10,011 nucleotides of DNA from Alteromonadaceae bacterium (GTDB lineage Bacteria > Pseudomonadota > Gammaproteobacteria > Pseudomonadales > Oleiphilaceae). Positions 447 to 10,011 of this stretch are shown in pieces. The notes under the pieces are model-generated. The model searched no databases. It was not told where the DNA came from and saw only the letters and a program-made list of their open reading frames with translations. Positions within the stretch are counted from its first letter, which is position 1, and each line of letters starts with the position of its first letter. The stretch lies in assembly GCA_013393545.1 (NCBI GenBank), contig JABXHG010000146.1:1-10011 (forward strand). Direction: 5' to 3'. Made by a program: the position numbers and the translations under genes.

Positions 447-465
447 ATGTTCAGTCGCTAACTCC

Positions 466-582
466 GTGCCAAGTAAGGGGGAGGCCTTTCAAAAACACGC
501 TGTGAATACATCCGTGTAACGCTCGAGCTCCGCCATCCATGGCTCCGCACGGTTTTTGAAAGGCCTCCCCCTTACTCGGCAC
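466..582 (+). repeat. Hairpin repeat copy 1 (long inverted-arm intergenic element)
   Basis: Arms 472-496 and 552-576 are perfectly complementary over 25 bp. After one mismatch (471/577) the stem resumes for 5 bp, GTGCC (466-470) with GGCAC (578-582). The 55-base interior holds two small hairpins with a similar loop, TACA-TCCG-TGTA (507-518) and GCC-ATCCAT-GGC (532-543), separated by CTCGAGCTC. Interior and inner arm match copy 2 (5221-5337, opposite orientation), while the outer arm sequence is different. It fills the gap between the gyrB terminator and the stop codon of the convergent membrane-protein gene. Not a simple transposon end: the outer arms are not shared between copies. Confidence 0.85.
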
Positions 583-600
583 TCAGAGTGAACCTCTGAT

Positions 601-1359
601 TCAGCTCTGCTCTTTCTTCCTTTGCTTTTCCTTCTCTTTCTCCACCAAGTGCGGCGCCATCACCTCTTCCAGGGTATAACCAGTCAGCCGTCGAATGGTG
701 CGCCACAGATAATAGAAAATCAGCATCATCATCACCATCGAGGGAATGGCGATCATCGGGTAGCTGACCAGAGTCATCCGCCCCAGTTCTTCGTTGAACG
801 CCTCTGTGCCGGACGGGCTGACGACGATCCATTTGGCCAGGACGTAATTCATGATCGAAGAGAACAGGAAAGTCCCGGCGAAGAAGTAGCTGGCTTTGAG
901 CAGCCGGTTTTCAAATTCTTCGATACCGCCCCGTTCCTCAAGGGAGGCCTGAATCTTGTCCACATCCAGAACGTTGGGGTTGTACAACAGCGTGCGAACC
1001 AGCGGGTATTTGGTACGGGTTGAGATAAGCACCGCCAGACCAATGATGGCGGGCACCGCCGCTTCCTTGATGGCCAGCCATCCCGCGTCCAGTTCAAGCA
1101 GGCCGATCCCCCCGGTCAGCGCCACGCTGATCAGGCCCAGCAGGGCAATAAAGTTTTTCTTGCGATAGCGGATTAGCTCGAAAAGGCCCCAGCCCAGGGG
1201 AAAGGCCAGACCGATAATCAGGGCATTGACGCTACCCAGGTGCTCATCTCCGCTAAACTTCATCAGAATAGCGGACGGAATGATGATGCTGACCAGAAGG
1301 TCAATCCACGGGCGGGGTTTGTGATCGGGTGTTGTGTTCGGTGCAGAATTGGCAGTCAT
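601..1359 (-). CDS. VC0807-family multi-pass inner-membrane protein
   Basis: 252 residues from the chosen ATG at 1359. Six hydrophobic stretches are visible, near residues 18-35, 42-63, 70-90, 95-113, 157-180 and 196-221, so this is a polytopic inner-membrane protein. The stretches SIIIPSAILMKF, GGIGLLELDAGWLAIKEA and PLVRTLLYNPNVLDVD, and the TEAFNEELGRMTLVSYP segment before the last helix, fit what I recall of the VC0807 family, whose function is unknown. The C-terminus is a charged cytoplasmic-type tail rich in E and K. A start 12 codons upstream (1395) is possible but lies inside the gabT terminator hairpin; the ATG at 1359 has AGGA six bases before it. The gene is separated from gabT by that terminator, so it probably depends on read-through or on a promoter I could not identify. 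Family assignment is from memory and moderately sure. Confidence 0.72.
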   Translation of the reverse strand: MTANSAPNTTPDHKPRPWIDLLVSIIIPSAILMKFSGDEHLGSVNALIIGLAFPLGWGLFELIRYRKKNFIALLGLISVALTGGIGLLELDAGWLAIKEAAVPAIIGLAVLISTRTKYPLVRTLLYNPNVLDVDKIQASLEERGGIEEFENRLLKASYFFAGTFLFSSIMNYVLAKWIVVSPSGTEAFNEELGRMTLVSYPMIAIPSMVMMMLIFYYLWRTIRRLTGYTLEEVMAPHLVEKEKEKQRKKEQS

Positions 1360-1370
1360 GCAGGATCCTG

Positions 1371-1442
1371 AAAACAAAAAAGGCGGCGAAACCATCGGGT
1401 TCCGGGCTAACCGGAACAGTATACGATGATAACGCCGCCTTT
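1371..1442 (-). terminator. Rho-independent terminator of gabT
   Basis: Read on the minus strand, 31 bases after the gabT stop, is a long two-tier hairpin. The outer stem pairs plus-strand 1379-1388 with 1433-1442 (AAAGGCGGCG/CGCCGCCTTT). Inner stems pair CATCG (1393-1397) with CGATG (1424-1428) and GTTCCGG (1399-1405) with CCGGAAC (1411-1417). The hairpin is followed on the minus strand by TTTTTTGTTTT (1381-1371). On the plus strand only three T follow, so it is directional for gabT. The U-tract ends 11 bases before the ATG of the next gene and overlaps its leader. Confidence 0.85.
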
Positions 1443-1473
1443 CGCGATCCTGCGGATCAGTGGTTAACGCCTA

Positions 1474-2751
1474 TCAGGCACCCACTTCCTGCAGGGCTTC
1501 TTCAACAATCTTCAGGCCTTCTTCCAGTACCTCGTCTTCGATGGTAACGGGCATCAGGAAGCGGATGGTGTTGCCGAACAGACCACAGCTGAGCAGAATC
1601 AGGCCTTTTTCCTTCGCCTTCTTGGTGATGGCGGCGGCAAGCTCGGGCTTCGGCTTGTGGTTGTCCTTGGTTTCTACCAGTTCGAATGCTGCCATGGCAC
1701 CCAGGTTACGGGCATTGGCTACGTGTTCGAACTTGCCTTCCCACTGCTTGAAGCGTTCATTCAGCTTCTCGCCCAGGCGCTGGCTCTTGCCGAGAATGTC
1801 TTCTTCCTTGAACACATCAAATACTGCCAGTGCTGCCGCGCAGGCGGTCGGGCTGCCGGTGTAGGTGCCGCCCAGGGAGTTCGGGCCGGAAGAATCCATC
1901 ACCTTGTCGGTACCGACGATGGCGGAAATCGGCATACCGTCGGCCATGGATTTGGCCATGGTCATAATATCCGGCTGTACATCGCTGTGTTCGATGGCGA
2001 ACATTTTGCCGGTACGGCCAAAGCCGCTCTGCACTTCGTCGACAATCATCAGGATGTCGTTGTCGTCACAGATTTTGCGAATTTTCTGCAGGAATTCGGC
2101 GGACGCGGCATAGAAACCGCCCTCGCCCAGAACCGGTTCGATAACGATGGCTGCGGTGTGACTGGCAGGAGAATCCGCCTTCATGGTCATTTCCAGGCCA
2201 CGCAGGGCTTCGTCTTCGCTGACACCGTGGTATGGCACCGGATAAGGGGCGCGATAGACCTGGCCGGGCATCGGGCCGAAATCGTTCTGGTAAGGCGCTG
2301 CTTTACCGTTCATGGCCATGGTCATGAAGGTACGGCCGTGATAACCGCCGGTGAAGCAGATCACGTTGTCTTTCCTGGTGGCAGCACGAGCGATCTTCAG
2401 TGCGTTTTCCAGTGCTTCAGCGCCAGAGTTGGCCAGCATAACTTTGGCGTCACCCTTAACCGGTACAACACCAGCCAGCTTTTCGGCCAGTTTTACATAG
2501 CCTTCATACGGCATAACGGTCTGGCAGGTGTGCATCACCTTATCCAGCTGCGCCTTGACCGCTTCCACCACCTTCGGGTGACGATGGCCAACGTTCAGTA
2601 CACCGATACCACCGGCGAAATCGATCATGCGCTTGCCGTCAGCATCCCAGAGTTCTGCGTTCAGTGCGTGATCAGCAAACTGTTCGTTCGGGCTGGCTGC
2701 CCCGGCTGCTACGTAACGTTCTTTAAGTGCCTGCAATTCTTTGTTGCTCAC
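1474..2751 (-). CDS. gabT: 4-aminobutyrate aminotransferase (class III PLP aminotransferase)
   Basis: GabT transfers the amino group of 4-aminobutyrate to 2-oxoglutarate, giving succinate semialdehyde and glutamate; related enzymes act on 5-aminovalerate or beta-alanine. Length is 425 residues, matching E. coli GabT (426). Visible residues: NSGAEALENALK at 108-119 (PLP phosphate site), GYHGR at 136-140 (aromatic Tyr, Arg140), Glu210 in LGEGGFY, IVDEVQSGFGRTG at 236-248 with Asp238 (pyridine nitrogen), Lys267 in MTMAKSMADG (Schiff base) and Arg397 in NTIRFLMP (carboxylate binding). All expected catalytic residues are present. The start is GTG at 2751-2749, preceded by GGGAG at 2765-2761 with 9-base spacing; no in-frame ATG fits better. 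It stands alone with its own terminator and without gabD beside it, so the operon context does not fix the substrate. Confidence 0.93.
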   Translation of the reverse strand: MSNKELQALKERYVAAGAASPNEQFADHALNAELWDADGKRMIDFAGGIGVLNVGHRHPKVVEAVKAQLDKVMHTCQTVMPYEGYVKLAEKLAGVVPVKGDAKVMLANSGAEALENALKIARAATRKDNVICFTGGYHGRTFMTMAMNGKAAPYQNDFGPMPGQVYRAPYPVPYHGVSEDEALRGLEMTMKADSPASHTAAIVIEPVLGEGGFYAASAEFLQKIRKICDDNDILMIVDEVQSGFGRTGKMFAIEHSDVQPDIMTMAKSMADGMPISAIVGTDKVMDSSGPNSLGGTYTGSPTACAAALAVFDVFKEEDILGKSQRLGEKLNERFKQWEGKFEHVANARNLGAMAAFELVETKDNHKPKPELAAAITKKAKEKGLILLSCGLFGNTIRFLMPVTIEDEVLEEGLKIVEEALQEVGA

Positions 2752-2785
2752 TGTGTCATTCTCCCTGGGTTCAGGTTAAAAGTTT

Positions 2786-2814
2786 CCTATACAGTGTAGG
2801 TAGTCCAGTCTCAG
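2786..2814 (-). promoter_or_regulatory. Possible sigma-70 promoter of gabT
   Basis: On the minus strand CTGAGA (2814-2809) and TATAGG (2791-2786) are separated by 17 bases, which would place a transcript start about 28 bases before the gabT GTG. Both boxes match the consensus only in part, so this is the best candidate by position rather than a clear promoter. No repressor operator is evident. Confidence 0.3.
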
Positions 2815-2870
2815 GAAACAAACCCCCTGTCCTTGTTATCCGGCCGGCTCGTTTCGAAACTGTAGTTTGG

Positions 2871-3092
2871 TCAGGCGTTGCTTTTGTCTGCCCGCTCCAC
2901 ATCGGCCGGAGTGGCATCCGGGCGAGCGTAGCGAATGTTGTCCGCCACGGTGCCATGGAACAAGGCCGGGTTCTGGCGCACCAGTGCAAAGTACTGGCGT
3001 AACGCATTGAGCGACAACGTCGCTGTGTCGACCCCATCAATCAGAATCCTGCCCTTACCGGGTTGATAAACGCCACAACCAGTTTTAAGGCC
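2871..3092 (-). pseudogene. Remnant of an ABC-exporter ATPase domain, frameshifted and truncated
   Basis: The minus strand from 3092 to TGA at 2873-2871 encodes GKGRILIDGVDTATLSLNAL, then a Q-loop block RQNPALFHGTVADNIRYARP and DATPADVERADKSNA before the stop. This is the stretch between Walker A and the signature motif of an ABC exporter. Walker A upstream and the LSGGQ, Walker B and H-switch downstream are missing. At its 5' side the ABC-like frame moves: the neighbouring frame reads ALKLVVAFINP just before GKGRILIDG, as if one base had been lost near 3057-3062. It differs from the same region of the intact exporter to the right (GAIRIDGQDI...VVPQDTVLFNDTLYRNLAYG), so it comes from a different exporter. 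No start codon or ribosome site supports expression. Confidence 0.75.
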
Positions 3093-3199
3093 TTACGATG
3101 TCGGGTGTTAATGGTGTGCCTCCTGCGTGCGGGCTACTGTAAACTCTGGCCACTATACGGTTTGTACTCGTAACAAGACCTGTCATAGATCCGGAGCAA

Positions 3200-3394
3200 G
3201 CACGCATGGGCGGTAGCGCTTTCCGGGACACGCTGTAAATACCCCTGCGGGGTCCGGCCAGCAATTACAAATTGCTGGTGTTCGGCTGTCGCATGAAGCG
3301 ATGCTTCATAAGCGCTCGGCCTCACCCCTTTACGCTCGACAAAAGCCGTCCCTGGCTTTTGACGGTCCCGGAAAGCGCTACCACCCAAACGTGC
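3200..3394 (+). repeat. Hairpin repeat copy 3 (larger, multi-hairpin variant)
   Basis: Arms 3212-3229 and 3365-3382 are perfectly complementary (18 bp). With mismatches they extend through TGGG/CCCA (3207-3210/3384-3387) to GCACG/CGTGC (3200-3204/3390-3394). Inside are hairpins CCCC-TGC-GGGG (3242-3252), CCAGCAATT-ACA-AATTGCTGG (3258-3278), ATGAAGC-GAT-GCTTCAT (3293-3309) and CAAAAGCC-GTCCCT-GGCTTTTG (3340-3361). It is alignable with copies 1 and 2 at both ends: GCTTTCC..GACACGCTG on the left, and GCTCG-GCCTCACC then TCCCTGGCT..ACGGT..GAAAG on the right. The two middle hairpins are extra. It ends 9 bases before the AGGAG of the ABC exporter gene, so it could form part of that gene's leader. 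Short reading frames inside it are by-products of the repeat. Confidence 0.8.
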
Positions 3395-3419
3395 CCCAAA
3401 TTAGGAGTTAATCTCAACA

Positions 3420-5213
3420 GTGCGCGCCTACGCCGACAACGACTACCCCGCTGACCACAAACCGGACTGGAAAGTGATCGCGGGTCTGTGGCCCTATCTG
3501 GCCGAATTCCGGGGCCGGGTGGTCCTGGCCCTGGCCCTGCTGGTGCTGGCCAAACTGGCGACCGTCGCCACCCCAATTGCCCTGAAATACATTGTGGACT
3601 ACCTGGACCAGAACCGGGGCGCGGACATGCTGCTGTGGATTCCGGTGATCCTGGTGGTGGCTTACGGTTCACTGCGTTTTGGTGCCACGTTATTCAGCGA
3701 ACTGCGGGATGCGGTGTTCGCCCGGGTGGCCGAGCGGGCCATGCGGAGGGTCTCGTTGCGGATCTTCGAGCATTTGCATCAGCGCGAGCTGGGTTTTCAT
3801 CTGGACCGGAAAACCGGTGGCCTGGCGCGGGATATCGAACGGGGCACCAACGGCATCAGTTTTCTATTGCGCTTTACCCTGTTCAACATTGTGCCCACCA
3901 TCCTGGAAATCCTGTTGGTGGCGGGCATTTTGCTGGTGGTCTTCAACGTCGGCTATGTCCTGGCCATTCTGGTGGCGGTGGTCGTGTATGTGGTTTATTC
4001 CATCAAGGTGACCGAGTGGCGCACCAAATACGTCCGCGAGGCCAATGCCCGGGATAACCAGTCCAACTCCCGGGCGGTGGACAGTCTGTTGAACTACGAG
4101 ACGGTAAAGTACTTCAACAACGAGCGCTTTGAAGCCCAGCGTTACGACGCTGACTTGCAGGAGTGGGAGCAGGCCCGGCTGAAAAACCGATTGTCGCTGG
4201 CAACGTTAAACGCCGGCCAGGCACTGATTATCGGACTGGCGTTGATCGTGATTATGGCCATGGCCGTCACCGAAGTGGCCAGTGGTGAGATCACACTGGG
4301 CGACTTCACCATGATCAACGCTTACCTGCTGCAATTATTCATTCCCCTGAATGCGCTGGGCTTTGTCTACCGTGAAATTCGTCAGGCGCTGGTGAACGTG
4401 GAGCGATTGTTTAAACTGCTTGGGGATAAACCCGCGATTGAAGACGCTCCGGACGCCCGGGCGCTGTCTGTGGATAAAGGCGAAGTGCGCTTCGAACATA
4501 TCCACTTTGCCTACCGCGCTGACCGACCGATTCTGCAGGATGTGAATTTCACCATTCCCGCCGGGCACAAGGTGGCGGTGGTGGGTGCCAGTGGTGCCGG
4601 TAAGTCCACCCTCGCCCGTTTGTTTTTCCGGTTCTACGACGTGGATAACGGCGCCATCCGAATTGACGGCCAGGACATTCGCGACGTGACTCAGGACAGC
4701 CTGCGCTCGGCGATTGGCGTGGTGCCGCAAGACACCGTGCTGTTTAACGACACCCTGTATCGCAACCTGGCCTATGGTCGGCCTGATGCCAGTGAAGAAG
4801 AAGTCCACCGAGCCGCCCGCATGGCCCATCTGGAAGACTTTATCCACAGCCTGCCGGAAGGTTATGACACGAAAGTGGGTGAACGTGGCCTGAAACTGTC
4901 CGGCGGCGAAAAACAGCGGGTGGCCATCGCTCGGGTAATCCTGAAGAACCCGCCGTTGCTGATTCTGGACGAGGCCACATCTTCTCTGGATTCTCTGTCA
5001 GAACAGGCCATTCTGGGCGCACTCAAGGAAGTCAGCCGCCAGCGCACCACCCTGGTGATTGCCCACCGGCTGTCGACCATCCGCGATGCCGATACCATTC
5101 TGGTGATGGATGGTGGCCGGATTGTGGAGAGTGGTAGTCATAACCAGTTATTGGCTGCGGCTGGCGACTATGCGCATCTTTGGGAGCAGCAGCACCGAGG
5201 CGGGGATAACTGA
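3420..5213 (+). CDS. Atm1/HMT-type ABC exporter, fused permease and ATPase half-transporter
   Basis: 597 residues, acting as an inner-membrane homodimer. Residues 25-330 form the six-helix transmembrane domain and 355-590 the ATPase. Visible motifs: Walker A GASGAGKS (389-396), Q-loop VVPQDTVLF (Gln437), signature LSGGEKQR (493-500), Walker B LLILDEAT (513-520), D-loop SSLD and switch His549 (VIAHRLST); all intact. The permease carries LLNYETVKYFNNERFEAQRY (223-242), typical of the Atm1/ABCB7/HMT1 group, and NAGQ at 264-267, resembling the Asn-x-x-Gln pair that binds glutathione in bacterial Atm1. Export of glutathione-linked metal or sulfur compounds is therefore likely by family; the substrate is not shown by the sequence. 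Start is GTG at 3420 with AGGAG at 3403-3407, a slightly long 12-base spacing. The gene stands between hairpin repeats 3 and 2, the second beginning 8 bases after its stop. Confidence 0.9.
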   Translation: MRAYADNDYPADHKPDWKVIAGLWPYLAEFRGRVVLALALLVLAKLATVATPIALKYIVDYLDQNRGADMLLWIPVILVVAYGSLRFGATLFSELRDAVFARVAERAMRRVSLRIFEHLHQRELGFHLDRKTGGLARDIERGTNGISFLLRFTLFNIVPTILEILLVAGILLVVFNVGYVLAILVAVVVYVVYSIKVTEWRTKYVREANARDNQSNSRAVDSLLNYETVKYFNNERFEAQRYDADLQEWEQARLKNRLSLATLNAGQALIIGLALIVIMAMAVTEVASGEITLGDFTMINAYLLQLFIPLNALGFVYREIRQALVNVERLFKLLGDKPAIEDAPDARALSVDKGEVRFEHIHFAYRADRPILQDVNFTIPAGHKVAVVGASGAGKSTLARLFFRFYDVDNGAIRIDGQDIRDVTQDSLRSAIGVVPQDTVLFNDTLYRNLAYGRPDASEEEVHRAARMAHLEDFIHSLPEGYDTKVGERGLKLSGGEKQRVAIARVILKNPPLLILDEATSSLDSLSEQAILGALKEVSRQRTTLVIAHRLSTIRDADTILVMDGGRIVESGSHNQLLAAAGDYAHLWEQQHRGGDN

Positions 5214-5220
5214 GAAGCTA

Positions 5221-5337
5221 GGGTGTCAGTGTGGTAGGCCTTTCCAGAACCGTGCGGAGCCATGGATGGCGGAGCTCGAGCGCCACATGGACGTGCCGCA
5301 GGAGCGTGTTTTGGAAAGGCCTACCACACTGACGCCC
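5221..5337 (-). repeat. Hairpin repeat copy 2 (inverted relative to copy 1)
   Basis: Arms 5225-5246 and 5312-5333 are perfectly complementary over 22 bp. They extend outward through a T-G pair to GGG/CCC (5221-5223/5335-5337) and inward through GAAC/GTTT (5247-5250/5308-5311) with one G-T, for 30 paired positions. Read on the minus strand the interior matches copy 1: CAAAACACGCT, a small hairpin CACG-TCCA-TGTG (5295-5284), GCGCTCGAGCTCC, then GCC-ATCCAT-GGC. AGGCCTTTC is shared with copy 1 but the outer arm (GTCAGTGTGGT against AGTAAGGGGG) is not. It starts 8 bases after the ABC exporter stop and ends 5 bases before the recD stop. No other terminator is present here, so it probably ends both transcripts. 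Confidence 0.88.
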
Positions 5338-5341
5338 GGGG

Positions 5342-7585
5342 TTATTGCTCCCCAAGCCGAAGCGCCAATCCGGAAGTCCGCACTACCTGTTGCTCTACGC
5401 TGTCTTTGAAGACCTGCGTGTTGCCGGTAATCAGGCTAAACCAGTTCTTCGCCCGGGTGATGCCGGTATACACCAGCTCCTTGGTCAGCACCGGGCTGAG
5501 CCGGTCTGGCAGCACCAGGCAGGTATGGTTGAACTCCGATCCCTGGGATTTGTGCACGGTCATGGCGTACACGGTTTCCAGTTGCTGTAGACGGCTGGGG
5601 GAAATCCAGCGAATGCCACCGGCGCTGTCACTGCCGGGGAACGCGACCCGCAGGGTGTCTTTCGGCTCGCCGCTGCCGGTTTTATTCCAGGGCACGCTGA
5701 AGGTTATGCCGATATCTCCGTTCATCAGGCCCAGGTTGTAGTCGTTGCCGGTCACCAGCACTGGTCGGCCGGGGTACCAGCCTTCTGCCCTGGGGATAAG
5801 TTTTTCTGCCAACAGATGGCGAGCAACCCTGTCGTTCAGGCCTTCCACGCCCCATGGTCCTTTGCGTAAGGCACACAGAATCTGGAAATCGTTGAAGGCT
5901 GCCAGCACGGTTGCGGCGTGAGCATCCCAGGCTTCCCGGGGACTGTCAGCAGTCAGGTCCGGGTGGTGGATAATGTTCAGATAATGGCGATAACCTACCG
6001 GTGGGGGAAGTTCGTGACCATTCACCCGTCGCCCTTGTCCGGCGTTGCGAAAGCTCTCCGGGGTGCCGGTAATAGCATGGCGGCAGATCAGTTCCAGCGT
6101 TTGTTCGGTGTCGGGTTGAGGTGTGTGGCTGTTCAGCCAGGTTACATCCTCAAACTCTGTGTTCCGGACCTGCTTCAATACCGTATTGGTCAGCGCGCTG
6201 GTGTTCACGGCTTCCGCCAGTTGCCGGATCCCGCTGTCCTGACTGAAGCGATAGCTCTTTCGCAGCATAGCCACGGCCTGGTCGAGTGCCTGGCCTGAAT
6301 TATCCACAAGACTGTCGGGTAGCCTGGCGCCGGTTAAGGCTTCCAGCCAGCCGGCGGTTTCGGTTGTGTAGTGGGCTTTAAAGGCTCGCTGGCACAATTC
6401 GCCCAGCACCGCACCGGCGTCCACCGAAGCCAGCTGGTCCTTGTCGCCCAGCAGGATCAGTTGGGCTCTGGCCGGCAGAGCGTCGAAGACAGAGGCCATC
6501 AGGTCGACATCCACCATGGAGGCTTCATCAATCACCAGAATATCCACCAGCATAGGGTTGTCCCGGTTGTGGCGGAACTGGCGGGTATCTGGCCGGCTGC
6601 CGAGTAATCGGTGCAGAGTGGTGACCCTGGTGGGAATGTCGTCCGGTTGGACGGCACCCGGGAGGTCCGTCAACGGCAGTTTGCTGACCGCACCACCGAT
6701 AGATTCATTCAGACGGGCGGCGGCCTTGCCGGTGGGCGCGGCCAGGCGGATACGGTACTTTCGCCCTGCCCGTTCCGGACTTTCACCAGCCATTGCCTGC
6801 AGGGCCGCCAAAAGATTCACCACGGTGGTGGTCTTGCCGGTGCCCGGGCCGCCGGTAATGACCGCAAAGCGGTTACGAGCCGCCAGGGCGCAGGCCAGCT
6901 TCTGGTAATCCACCACGTCGGTTGACCGGAACAGTTGGTTCAGCGCCTGCGACAGGGTTTGCGCTGCGGATGATTGCGGATCGGCCAGTGGAGATGCCAA
7001 TCCAAGTCTGTGCCGTATGCCTTCGGCAATGCGCTGTTCGTAGCGCCAGAACCGGCGCAGGTACAGCCGGGTGCCGTTCAGCACCATGGGTGCCGATACT
7101 GATCCGTCGCTCACGGCGAGAGAGTTCTGAAGGGCCGTCAGGCAGTCGGCCAGCTGCACCCGGGCCAGCAGGTCCTGTGGATAAATGCCTTGCAGCTGTG
7201 CAACCTCCGTTTCCGACAGCCCGGTGTTGGCTGTTTCTTCAGGCGGCAACGTCAGGGTATTGCCGGGATCGGCCAGCAACATGGCCAGGTCGATACAGAC
7301 GTGGCCACGGCCTACCTGGTGGGAGGTCAGTGCCGCCAACAACAGAACCAGCGGCTGCGGACTTTGGCCTTGCTCTTCACTCAGTTCCCGAATCAGTCGG
7401 GCAAAGCCCGCATCCAGCGGGCGAATCCATTCGGCCTCTTGCCATTGCCGTAACAGGGCTTCGGTTTCACTCAGACTGTCCAGGCGGTGGGGTTTATCCA
7501 CAGGTGTGCGCGGCTCAGGGTTCACGGGCGTATGGTCTCCCAGATCCAGGGGAAACTGGTTTTCGGTATGGCGGGTACGACTCAT
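5342..7585 (-). CDS. recD: RecBCD enzyme subunit RecD (5'-3' helicase)
   Basis: RecD is the SF1B 5'-3' helicase of RecBCD and, in E. coli, keeps the nuclease active until Chi. The protein has 747 residues. Motifs: Walker A GGPGTGKTT (245-253), motif Ia APTGKAAARL (283-292), Walker B VIDEASMVD (351-359), motif III LLGDKDQLASV (378-388), Arg-rich motif IV KSYRFSQDSGI (443-453), motif V AMTVHKSQGSEF (674-685) and motif VI LVYTGITRAK (704-713). All are intact. The N-terminal 200 residues form the RecB-contact domain. It is about 140 residues longer than E. coli RecD (608); part of the extra length seems to be the 400-440 insertion and the 500-550 loop. ATG at 7585-7583 overlaps the recB stop (ATGA), and GGGGAGG lies 7 bases upstream (7599-7593), indicating translational coupling to recB. 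The TAA stop sits at the expected family end (SGLALRLGEQ). Confidence 0.95.
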   Translation of the reverse strand: MSRTRHTENQFPLDLGDHTPVNPEPRTPVDKPHRLDSLSETEALLRQWQEAEWIRPLDAGFARLIRELSEEQGQSPQPLVLLLAALTSHQVGRGHVCIDLAMLLADPGNTLTLPPEETANTGLSETEVAQLQGIYPQDLLARVQLADCLTALQNSLAVSDGSVSAPMVLNGTRLYLRRFWRYEQRIAEGIRHRLGLASPLADPQSSAAQTLSQALNQLFRSTDVVDYQKLACALAARNRFAVITGGPGTGKTTTVVNLLAALQAMAGESPERAGRKYRIRLAAPTGKAAARLNESIGGAVSKLPLTDLPGAVQPDDIPTRVTTLHRLLGSRPDTRQFRHNRDNPMLVDILVIDEASMVDVDLMASVFDALPARAQLILLGDKDQLASVDAGAVLGELCQRAFKAHYTTETAGWLEALTGARLPDSLVDNSGQALDQAVAMLRKSYRFSQDSGIRQLAEAVNTSALTNTVLKQVRNTEFEDVTWLNSHTPQPDTEQTLELICRHAITGTPESFRNAGQGRRVNGHELPPPVGYRHYLNIIHHPDLTADSPREAWDAHAATVLAAFNDFQILCALRKGPWGVEGLNDRVARHLLAEKLIPRAEGWYPGRPVLVTGNDYNLGLMNGDIGITFSVPWNKTGSGEPKDTLRVAFPGSDSAGGIRWISPSRLQQLETVYAMTVHKSQGSEFNHTCLVLPDRLSPVLTKELVYTGITRAKNWFSLITGNTQVFKDSVEQQVVRTSGLALRLGEQ

Positions 7586-10011
7586 GCGGCTGCCTCCCCG
7601 GTGACCGGCTTGCCATCGAACAGGGCATCCAGTTGTTCGATCAGCGCTCTGGGTGGCTTGTCGGTAAAGGCGCCGCCGCTGGCGGAATTCACGCCTCTCA
7701 GGAACAGGTAGACAGCACCCCCGATGTGCCGGTCGTAGTCGTAACCCGGCAGCCGGGCTTTCAGCAGTCGGTGCAGAGCCAGCAGGTAGAGCACGTATTG
7801 CAGGTCATAACGCTTGGCCAGGATGGCATCGCCCATGGTCTGGTGGGTGTAGGCATCGTCCTCCTCGCCCAGGGTATTGGATTTGTAGTCCAGCACGTAA
7901 TACTGCCCATTGTGTTCGAACACCAGATCAATAAAGCCTTTGAGCATGCCGTTGAAGCGGTGAGTTTCGGCCCGGGGCCGGTCAGCGCCATTCAGGGTAT
8001 GGTGGGTGACCAGCGCATCCAGTTGCCGGATGCTGACATTACGGCTTTCAAACCAGAATTCCAGTTCCGGTCGTAGGTTGCCCAGCTCAGCGAGACTGGC
8101 GGTTTGCTGCCCTCCGCGGTCCAGTGTCAGCGGCTTGCGGATCAGAGTCAGTAACCACTGTTGAAGGGGCTCCACCCAGTCGCTCCAGCCACGGGTACCA
8201 CAACGGCGAACCAGCTGTTCGTGCAGCAGCTCGGGGTTATCCACAACCCGCTGAAAGCCCTGGGCTGTGCACCATTCCAGCAATTCGTGCAGGAAGGTGC
8301 CGGGGCCGGCGCCTTTGGGGAAATGGTGATGGTTGCGGGTAGCGGGGGCCGCCGGTATTTCATCGGCCTCGTCCTGGGCACTTTCTTCCAGCAGGTTCTG
8401 GGTCTGGGCGTCTTCCACTTCACCGGTGAAGGTAATACCGGTGCCTGCCATGCCGGTGTATTCGATGCTGGAGTAACTGGCAATCCACCAGTCTTCTTTT
8501 GCTTCCCGAGTGGATTTCAACGCCGGCCCCAGAGCTTCCGGGGCGGTTTCGGTGAACACGATGCTATCGGCTTCCGGTAACGGCTGGACGGCGATTTCCG
8601 GATACCCTTGTGCCAGAGGTGCCAGTGCCTGACGGATGCCCTGCTCCGGTGAACCGGCAAGCACGTAGCCCAAACCACTCTGGTGCCAGTTATCCACAGC
8701 TGCCGCGCCCACCCAGGTGGCAAACCGGGCCCGGGTCAGAGCGACATAAAGTTTACGAATGTCTTCACCCAGGCGTTCCTGGTCGGCTTTTTCGGTGTCT
8801 TCCGGTGTGGGTTCGAGCACGGTGACTTTTTGGCCATCGTCATCGTGGTAACTCATGGAGGTCTGTTTCTGGTTTTCCGCCCGAAACGCCGTGCCGAAGG
8901 GCAGGAACACCAGCGGGTATTCCAGGCCCTTGGATTTGTGCACGGTGACGACCTTCACCAGCCCGGCATCGCTTTCCAGGCGCAGAGTGCGGTGCTCGTC
9001 TTCCTCGTCCGCCGCTCGCAGGATCCGGGTGAAGTGCTACACCAGGGCGTGTTCGCCGTCCAGCTCCTGGCTTGCCTCCTGCAAAAGCTCGCCCAGGTGC
9101 AACAGATCGGTCAGCTCGCGCTCGCCGTTGCCGCCCGGACTATTCTGGCCCAGCAGGCGGGCCGGCACGGCGTAATCCACCATGATCCGGCGCATCAGCG
9201 GCAGCACGCCCTGGCGCTGCCAGAGGCGATGATAGCCGCCAAACTGCTCGACTTTGGCCTCCCAGGCCAGCTCATCGCGCTGAAAGCGGTCAAGTTCGGC
9301 AAGGCCAAGCCCCAGCGCCCTGGTGGCAAGCGCAGCGCGCAGCCGGCTCTGAGCCTGGCGGGAGCTGGCTAAAGGTTCACTGCAGGCGGCAAGCCACAGG
9401 GCTACCTGGGCGGCCATGGGCGAGCTGAAGACCTTGTCCTTGTCCGAGAGATAGACGCTTTTGACCCCGCGCCGGGCAAGCTCGCGGCGGATCAGCCCGG
9501 CTTCCGTGGCGTTGTTGACCAGCACCGCCATGTCCGAGGGCCTGATTGGGGTCAGAGTCTCGCCGTCGTCAAAACCCGCCCGGCGGGTTTGGCCGGCGTT
9601 GAGCAGGGTCGTCATATAGCTGGCGCAGCTCTTGGCCATGGTGTCCTGATAGACACCCTTGCCCAACGGCTTGCCGTTGTCGCTGTACAGATGCCAAAGG
9701 GTCATGGCGTTTACGGCCTCGCCGTCAAGGGTCAGCGTTTCTTCCCGGCCCCGGGCGCTGACCGGGATAAACGGCAGCGGGTCGTTGTCGCCGTCGCGGA
9801 ACAAAAATGCGCCGCTTGTGTGAGCGCCGTCCTGATTGTCATCCGGCTTGTCGGCATAGCTGAAGCAGTGGTTGACCGCCTCGACCATGGCCTCGCTTGA
9901 GCGGAAGTTTTTGCCCAGGGTTACGTGGCGGCCGGCGGTGTCTCGGCGGGCCTTGAGATAGGTGAAAATATCCGCCCCGCGAAACGCGTAGGTCCCCTGC
10001 TTGGCGTCGCC
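7582..10011 (-). pseudogene. recB: RecBCD enzyme subunit RecB, C-terminal two thirds, interrupted by an in-frame TAG
   Basis: RecB is the 3'-5' helicase and the nuclease of RecBCD. The frame enters from the right edge at helicase motif III (GDAKQGTYAFRGADIF) and continues with motif IV-like GKNFRSSEAMVEAVN. Codon 325 of the fragment (9039-9037) is TAG; the same frame resumes with HFTRILRAADEEDEHRTL, motif V VTVHKSKGLEYPLVFLPF (8952-8899) and motif VI YVALTRARFA. The C-terminal nuclease has FLHELLEW, ELEFWFE, GFIDLVF, VLDYKSN and DLQYVLYLL, matching the His/Glu/Asp/Asp-x-Lys active site of E. coli RecB. No frameshift is involved, so one base change (CAG to TAG would restore Gln) separates this from an intact gene. 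As written, the product would lack motifs V-VI and the nuclease. The intact downstream half and coupled recD argue for a recent mutation or a base error. TGA at 7584-7582 overlaps the recD ATG. Confidence 0.85.

Follow-up and report, generated by a model that had tools for sequence, protein, structure and literature searches.

Dispersed hairpin repeats of Marinobacter with co-varying outer stems and CsrA-type ANGGA loops

How can the two arms of a long hairpin remain complementary while their sequence changes from copy to copy? The question is raised by a stretch of 10,011 nucleotides (nt) from an Alteromonadaceae bacterium (contig JABXHG010000146.1 of assembly GCA_013393545.1; hereafter the window), in which a sequence-only reading had noticed three copies of one hairpin family, here called E1, E2 and E3. 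That reading took the changing stems as evidence against a miniature inverted-repeat transposable element (MITE), and proposed selection on the fold or template switching during replication instead. An inverted-repeat scan and RNA folds confirmed the family, its three members being the top three inverted repeats of the whole window. We think that they probably belong to a dispersed, mobile, MITE-like element encoding a TwoAYGGAY-type structured RNA with CsrA-type sites.

An interspersed family with co-varying stems

The outer arms, previously described as perfectly paired, are nearly complementary (97% over 31 nt in E1, 93% over 30 nt in E3 and 90% over 30 nt in E2). The RNA folds of E1, E3 and E2 have z-scores of -10.1, -9.0 and -8.3, respectively, and none of 200 shuffled sequences folds equally well. 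E3 is oriented opposite to E1 and E2. The arms of E1 and E3 had been called unrelated; when relatives are included, a by-eye alignment fits them to a single consensus, approximately CAGTRAGGGGAGGCCYTTCC. As for the small inner hairpins said to lie at the same place, TACA/TGTA and CACG/TGTG do correspond, whereas CCCC/GGGG belongs to an extra block of E2.

Using an initial core profile and then a covariance model built from 32 aligned copies (R1), we found relatives in 63 loci around recD, 61 of which are titled Marinobacter. Six Marinobacter genomes contain at least 95, 62, 100, 55, 98 and 77 R1 matches, respectively, and one Aeromonas genome contains none. Of 56 genomes sampled evenly across the order, the centre (G001) counted in, 17 had R1 matches. 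These copy numbers are lower bounds, as scoring was confined to the 150 best first-look candidates of each genome (67 for the order-wide sample); conversely, some matches represent a single element counted twice, once per strand (6 of 98 in G005 and 2 of 30 in M. algicola, G063, the two genomes for which this was counted). G063 has at least 30 R1 matches, two of them partial and each at base 1 of a contig (C33 and C61). Long hairpins may break assemblies, and copy numbers from drafts may therefore be underestimates.

None of 129 located copies lies inside a gene called by a codon-based caller trained on Marinobacter, which defines an intergenic, interspersed repeat; this count superseded that of a crude open reading frame (ORF) caller (8 of 129 'inside' genes). 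For 6 of 28 elements in other genera, no called gene lay alongside. Nearby copies are almost always arranged back to back, their ANGGA strands diverging: this applies to 33 of the 34 pairs selected by eye among the matches listed, and to all 8 distinct pairs separated by less than 400 bp within the gene-context loci.

The claim that stem identity is kept while sequence changes holds. Among the 32 aligned copies, 96.4% of stem cells are paired, 29 of the 37 pairs have changed on both sides, and 263 cells show two-sided changes; shuffling gave 72 +/- 7 such cells, and sliding the partner no more than 46. One of the five co-variation measures, further pair types, is weak (64 versus 58.6, with 18 of 500 shuffles as high). 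In orthologous slots, 387 cells show two-sided change with pairing kept, and 148 involve a wobble or a mismatch; another tally over 22 columns counted 177 transitions and 155 transversions among the double changes, and 113 cells that are non-Watson-Crick. In both tallies the cells, taken over species pairs, are not independent.

Strand-biased mismatches and conserved loops

Mismatches in the stems discriminate between the two strands. Read on the strand that carries the ANGGA motifs, the 3294 pairs of 120 distinct copies include 71 G.U, 13 A.C and 35 other mismatches; on the opposite strand (ACACGC...ATCCNT) the same positions read as 71 A.C and 13 G.T. Taken per element, 49 lean towards G.U, 4 towards A.C and 67 tie (p 7e-11), and the G.U:A.C split is 57:10 in Marinobacter and 14:3 in other genera. 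Forty further, lower-scoring M. salarius copies show 43 G.U, 12 A.C and 15 other mismatches (p 3e-5). As a control we used G022, a genome of another species that harbours a young repeat of the same family with nearly identical arms. Recent changes in its copies produced 16 G.U, 16 A.C and 28 other mismatches (Fisher p 0.0004 for 16:16 versus the Marinobacter 57:10), a count that omits 15 of 46 copies on account of their distance (more than 7 differences) from the two subtype consensuses and in which some changes are common to several copies rather than independent events.

Because young copies show 16:16, the G.U bias does not result from general mutation, and mutation linked to transcription from neighbouring genes is unlikely since orientation relative to genes is near random. 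The simplest reading of the bias is selection on the RNA fold, one of the two proposals of the sequence-only reading. Such a comparison of G.U and A.C mismatches in old and young copies constitutes a clean test of which strand of a palindromic repeat is selected.

On that same strand, the conserved core forms two hairpins with ANGGAN loops, in which N is free, and this is the CsrA/RsmA recognition motif. At least two closed ANGGAN hairpins are present in 114 of the 120 distinct elements (reduced from 128; the motif finder missed covariance-model loci, at least L077, L109, L111, L113, L121 and L126). Over 252 loops, position 2 is T in 138, G in 72, A in 30 and C in 12; a C-G pair closes 229 of them. 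As the finder demanded a TCC motif, the 120-element count is biased upwards, and the 40 lower-scoring M. salarius copies, 38 of which retain at least two closed ANGGAN loops, provide a fairer check. Both plain ANGGA motifs, a laxer count than closed loops, are found in 36 of the 46 young G022 copies.

The CsrA/RsmE consensus described from in vitro selection and nuclear magnetic resonance work in the sources cited comprises RUACARGGAUGU and ANGGAN hexaloops (PMC7652899; PMC3791407). The loops of the family fit it, with an ANGGA hexaloop, a short closing stem and two sites, one in the case of E2; the exact RUACARGGAUGU occurs in 11 of the 120 elements and ACANGGAUGU in 50. Genes for CsrA were found in all 18 genomes searched, which would permit CsrA binding. 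G022 has nine csrA-family matches and at least 64 R1 matches; the 17 other genomes have 1-3 csrA matches each.

The closest Rfam family is TwoAYGGAY (RF01731), which matches on the ANGGA strand. A CsrA role has been proposed for it in one account (PMC4333381), and another classes it as a probable RNA that is unlikely to be cis-regulatory (PMC2864571). E1 and E3 have the two loops on the same strand that characterize TwoAYGGAY, in the form ANGGAN, and E2 has one. At E <= 0.01, RF01731 matches all six Marinobacter genomes, at 7-35 places each, and none of 14 control genomes.

Mobility, rival explanations and a possible role

The element family is apparently mobile and MITE-like. In G022, copies at different sites have common inverted ends, TACTAGTAAAGC...GACCCGGTAGTA (TACTA...TAGTA), and in L155 the core and arms are inverted relative to these ends. 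No target-site duplication beyond a possible TA was seen by eye in G022 copies. Defined shared inverted ends of the MITE kind are found in G022 only; Marinobacter has a weak flank motif (35 and 45 of 121, versus shuffle means of 15 and 23), and the direct-repeat flank motif CWCCRAAG was set aside, being weakly enriched. Many copies with identical arms, which the sequence-only reading regarded as the mark of an ordinary MITE, thus occur in G022 and not in Marinobacter. Because the G022 copies with common arms and ends belong to the same family, changing stems do not speak against a MITE, and the opposition between MITE and fold was a false one.

L183 is the sole long inverted-end pair inspected, and no transposase was recognised in it by eye, without a family search on this locus. 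Its two inverted copies flank a GNAT-like acetyltransferase frame (positions 1501-2370, named by eye), and a nearby parE-like gene end recalls the neighbourhood of E1 in the window. Genes for Y1_Tnp (RAYT) proteins have no match in three of the six element-rich genomes and 1-2 matches in the others; a REP/RAYT (repetitive extragenic palindrome) system was rejected on these counts.

Could the fold serve transposition as a DNA hairpin, with no role for the RNA? The common ends of young G022 copies, the near-random orientation to genes and the tolerance of core inversions (see below) all suit such a purely DNA-level MITE, which we nevertheless regard as unlikely. In a DNA hairpin, G.T and A.C should be equally acceptable or both be excluded, and the observed split is 71:13. 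The two closed loops kept in 38 of 40 lower-scoring M. salarius copies, against 36 of 46 in G022 by the laxer count, also argue against it. So does the lack of a Y1 (IS200/RAYT-type) transposase gene in three of six element-rich genomes, which excludes this one candidate mover.

Improbable as the main explanation is the other proposal of the sequence-only reading, quasipalindrome correction, in which replication template switching copies one arm onto the other and complementarity arises without selection. This process is strand-symmetric and does not predict the 71:13 split, which is why we favour selection on the RNA fold over it; moreover, 74 of 75 changes from the G022 subtype consensus are single-sided although the arms and loop are alike. 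It may still contribute, as suggested by orthologous slot 17.7. There, L011 and L015 (DNA 93.3% identical) differ by four double transversions with no single-sided change over 22 columns, and at 1 of 55 core positions. Pairwise comparisons of L011, L015 and L014 give 1-2 core changes and 4-6 double changes, of which almost every one is a transversion; as the near flank of L014 differs too, a fresh insertion is possible for that locus. The 177 double transitions and 155 double transversions of the non-independent orthologous tally may be cited for it as well.

A bidirectional 3'-end element, terminator or mRNA stabiliser, between convergent genes is very improbable: E1 and E3 do lie about 20 and 9 nt past a stop codon, and where recD meets the ABC gene the arms can contain the stop codons of both, but the elements lie nearly as often between divergent genes (11 of 61) as between convergent ones (14 of 61), the ABC gene has its start codon 27 nt away from E2, and the flanks read by eye show no T run after the stems. 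The latter observation also led us to reject an intrinsic terminator, no terminator scan having been run.

Several observations weigh against a TwoAYGGAY-type RNA element whose stems drift under selection. The window has no Rfam match at Rfam's own thresholds: both RF01731 scores lie under its gathering score of 43 bits (Table 1) and E2 is unmatched, so that we call the window elements TwoAYGGAY-like rather than file them as members. Four of ten other loci match RF01731 at E <= 1, one of them over the cut-off (L064, 44.3 bits), and a place over the cut-off exists in one of ten genomes, a Marinobacter. RF01731 finds no place in G022 and weak ones in R1-negative genomes (one in G007, two in G008). 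An annotated Yersinia sRNA (small RNA), Ysr224 (RF02770), resembles the opposite strand (L100, 1482-1587, 35 bits, cut-off 70), and might be a distant relative annotated on the other strand, to judge from this resemblance. Mapping relative to genes gave near-random orientations (18, 15, 14 and 11, the rest 3, among 61 genome-sample elements), and thus give no sign of a steady transcription unit. The clustering of double transversions at slot 17.7 is unlike what gradual drift would leave. Finally, related species differ in their cores at the recD/ABC slot, between arms that can still be aligned: the core is inverted in L022 versus L023, and of another type in L007 versus L057 and in L001 versus L041.

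Comparison of these sequences suggests that recombination between arms, or conversion between copies, may have occurred at this slot. Copying of local flanks into the arms was rejected, as by-eye alignment matches the recD-slot arms of three groups with one another and as deletion may account for L054, L056 and L002, with an original empty site possible for L054. L037 retains only a short palindrome. Stop codons overlap the outer arms by 6-8 nt, those of both recD and the ABC gene in L008, L015, L017, L022 and L023 (near 12245-12400), and that of the ABC gene in L002, L004, L006, L007, L012 and L057 (near 12265-12425).

If the element does act as an RNA, its long outer stem (about 28 bp) would present two small CANGGAYG-type hairpin loops on one strand, transcribed from a neighbouring promoter or its own. 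A CsrA/RsmA dimer could bind one hairpin per subunit, and the tens to approximately 100 copies per genome might together hold or titrate CsrA, or tether it to transcripts, with whatever effect on the host. The outer stem would be free in sequence yet bound to pair in the RNA, and resident copies would drift by compensated changes. More tentatively, and with considerable doubt, we propose a genome-wide distributed CsrA sponge: a mobile element carrying the recognition RNA of a host regulator would be read by flanking promoters, and RNA-fold selection would persist long after transposition while the stems drift freely. Such a sponge would comprise as many as roughly 100 loci, with 200 sites, in each Marinobacter genome.

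The window elements and known systems

The coordinates of the three elements are collected in Table 1. In E2, the extra block has removed the ANGGA loop of hairpin 1; among the copies inspected, one other, L048 of M. confluentis, also has this block. Ysr224 also resembles window positions 451-553, opposite to the ANGGA strand (20 bits, cut-off 70). No close copy of E1 was found in plasmid or phage records (E <= 1e-5).

Table 1. Positions of the hairpin elements and their parts in the window
Feature	Position	Strand	Description	Basis
E1, whole element	466..582	- (ANGGA, presumed RNA strand)	arms 466-496/552-582	inverted repeat, fold
E1, RF01731 match	458-590	-	38.6 bits, E 0.0022	
E1, hairpin 1	507..518	-	TACACGGATGTA, loop ACGGAT closed by C-G	sequence, alignment column structure
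E1, hairpin 2	532..543	-	GCCATGGATGGC, loop ATGGAT	sequence, alignment column structure
E2, long variant	3200..3394	- (ANGGA strand)	arms 3200-3229/3365-3394; no RF01731 match	
E2, extra block	3243..3330 (approximate limits)	-	about 80-90 nt, further hairpins inside hairpin 1	by-eye comparison with plain copies and L048
E2, hairpin 2	3340..3361	-	extended stem CAAAAGCC/GGCTTTTG, loop AGGGAC	sequence, fold
E3, whole element	5221..5337	+ (ANGGA strand)	arms 5221-5250/5308-5337	inverted repeat, fold
E3, RF01731 match	5207-5350	+	40.2 bits, E 9.5e-4	
E3, hairpin 2	5259..5270	+	GCCATGGATGGC, loop ATGGAT	sequence
E3, hairpin 1	5284..5295	+	CACATGGACGTG, loop ATGGAC	sequence

The window DNA is Marinobacter-like, its RecD protein being 85-86% identical to its best matches (M. 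vinifirmus, Marinobacter sp. SS5-14b, M. shengliensis and a Marinobacter metagenome-assembled genome). With genes named from their translations and delimited by the codon-based caller, the order is the parE end, E1, a membrane protein gene (-), a gabT-like gene (-), E2, an ABC exporter gene (+), E3, recD (-) and recB (-). E3 sits between the 3' ends of the ABC gene (which ends at 5213) and recD (5342). The recB-like frame is interrupted by an in-frame stop at 9037-9039 (-), ORFs 9037-9888 and 7582-8958 being in the same frame; the gene is either broken or affected by a sequencing error. Upstream of the gabT-like gene, positions 2880-3070 or so (-) resemble, by eye, a short ABC-type ATPase remnant.

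Among known repeats, YPAL/RU-2 of Yersinia, an intergenic palindromic mobile repeat of about 168 bp according to its description (PMC2229807), is similar by that description; the sole Yersinia resemblance seen in sequence is that of Ysr224 to the core, on the other strand. REP/REPIN elements with RAYT, ERIC and other MITEs likewise form many intergenic palindromic copies, some in inverted pairs, but half of the six element-rich genomes lack Y1_Tnp and the Marinobacter stems are not conserved in sequence. TwoAYGGAY shares the two hairpins with AYGGAY-like loops on an outer stem, on the same strand; unlike it, the present family mostly scores under the cut-off in Marinobacter, reaches tens to about 100 copies per genome, has long copy-specific stems and accepts any base at loop position 2. 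Among the papers listed in our literature searches, we saw none that reports TwoAYGGAY or CsrA-site repeats in many copies.

The Csr system is understood as a few sRNAs titrating CsrA, and these sRNAs, CsrB/CsrC and RsmX/Y/Z, carry many CsrA sites each. They have in common with the element ANGGA-loop hairpins closed by short stems, but the latter has two sites per copy and many dispersed copies. If our interpretation is correct, up to about 200 CsrA-type sites per genome would have been seeded by a transposable RNA, a mobile element that feeds on, or was recruited into, a global regulator, and CsrA availability would depend on dispersed repeats.

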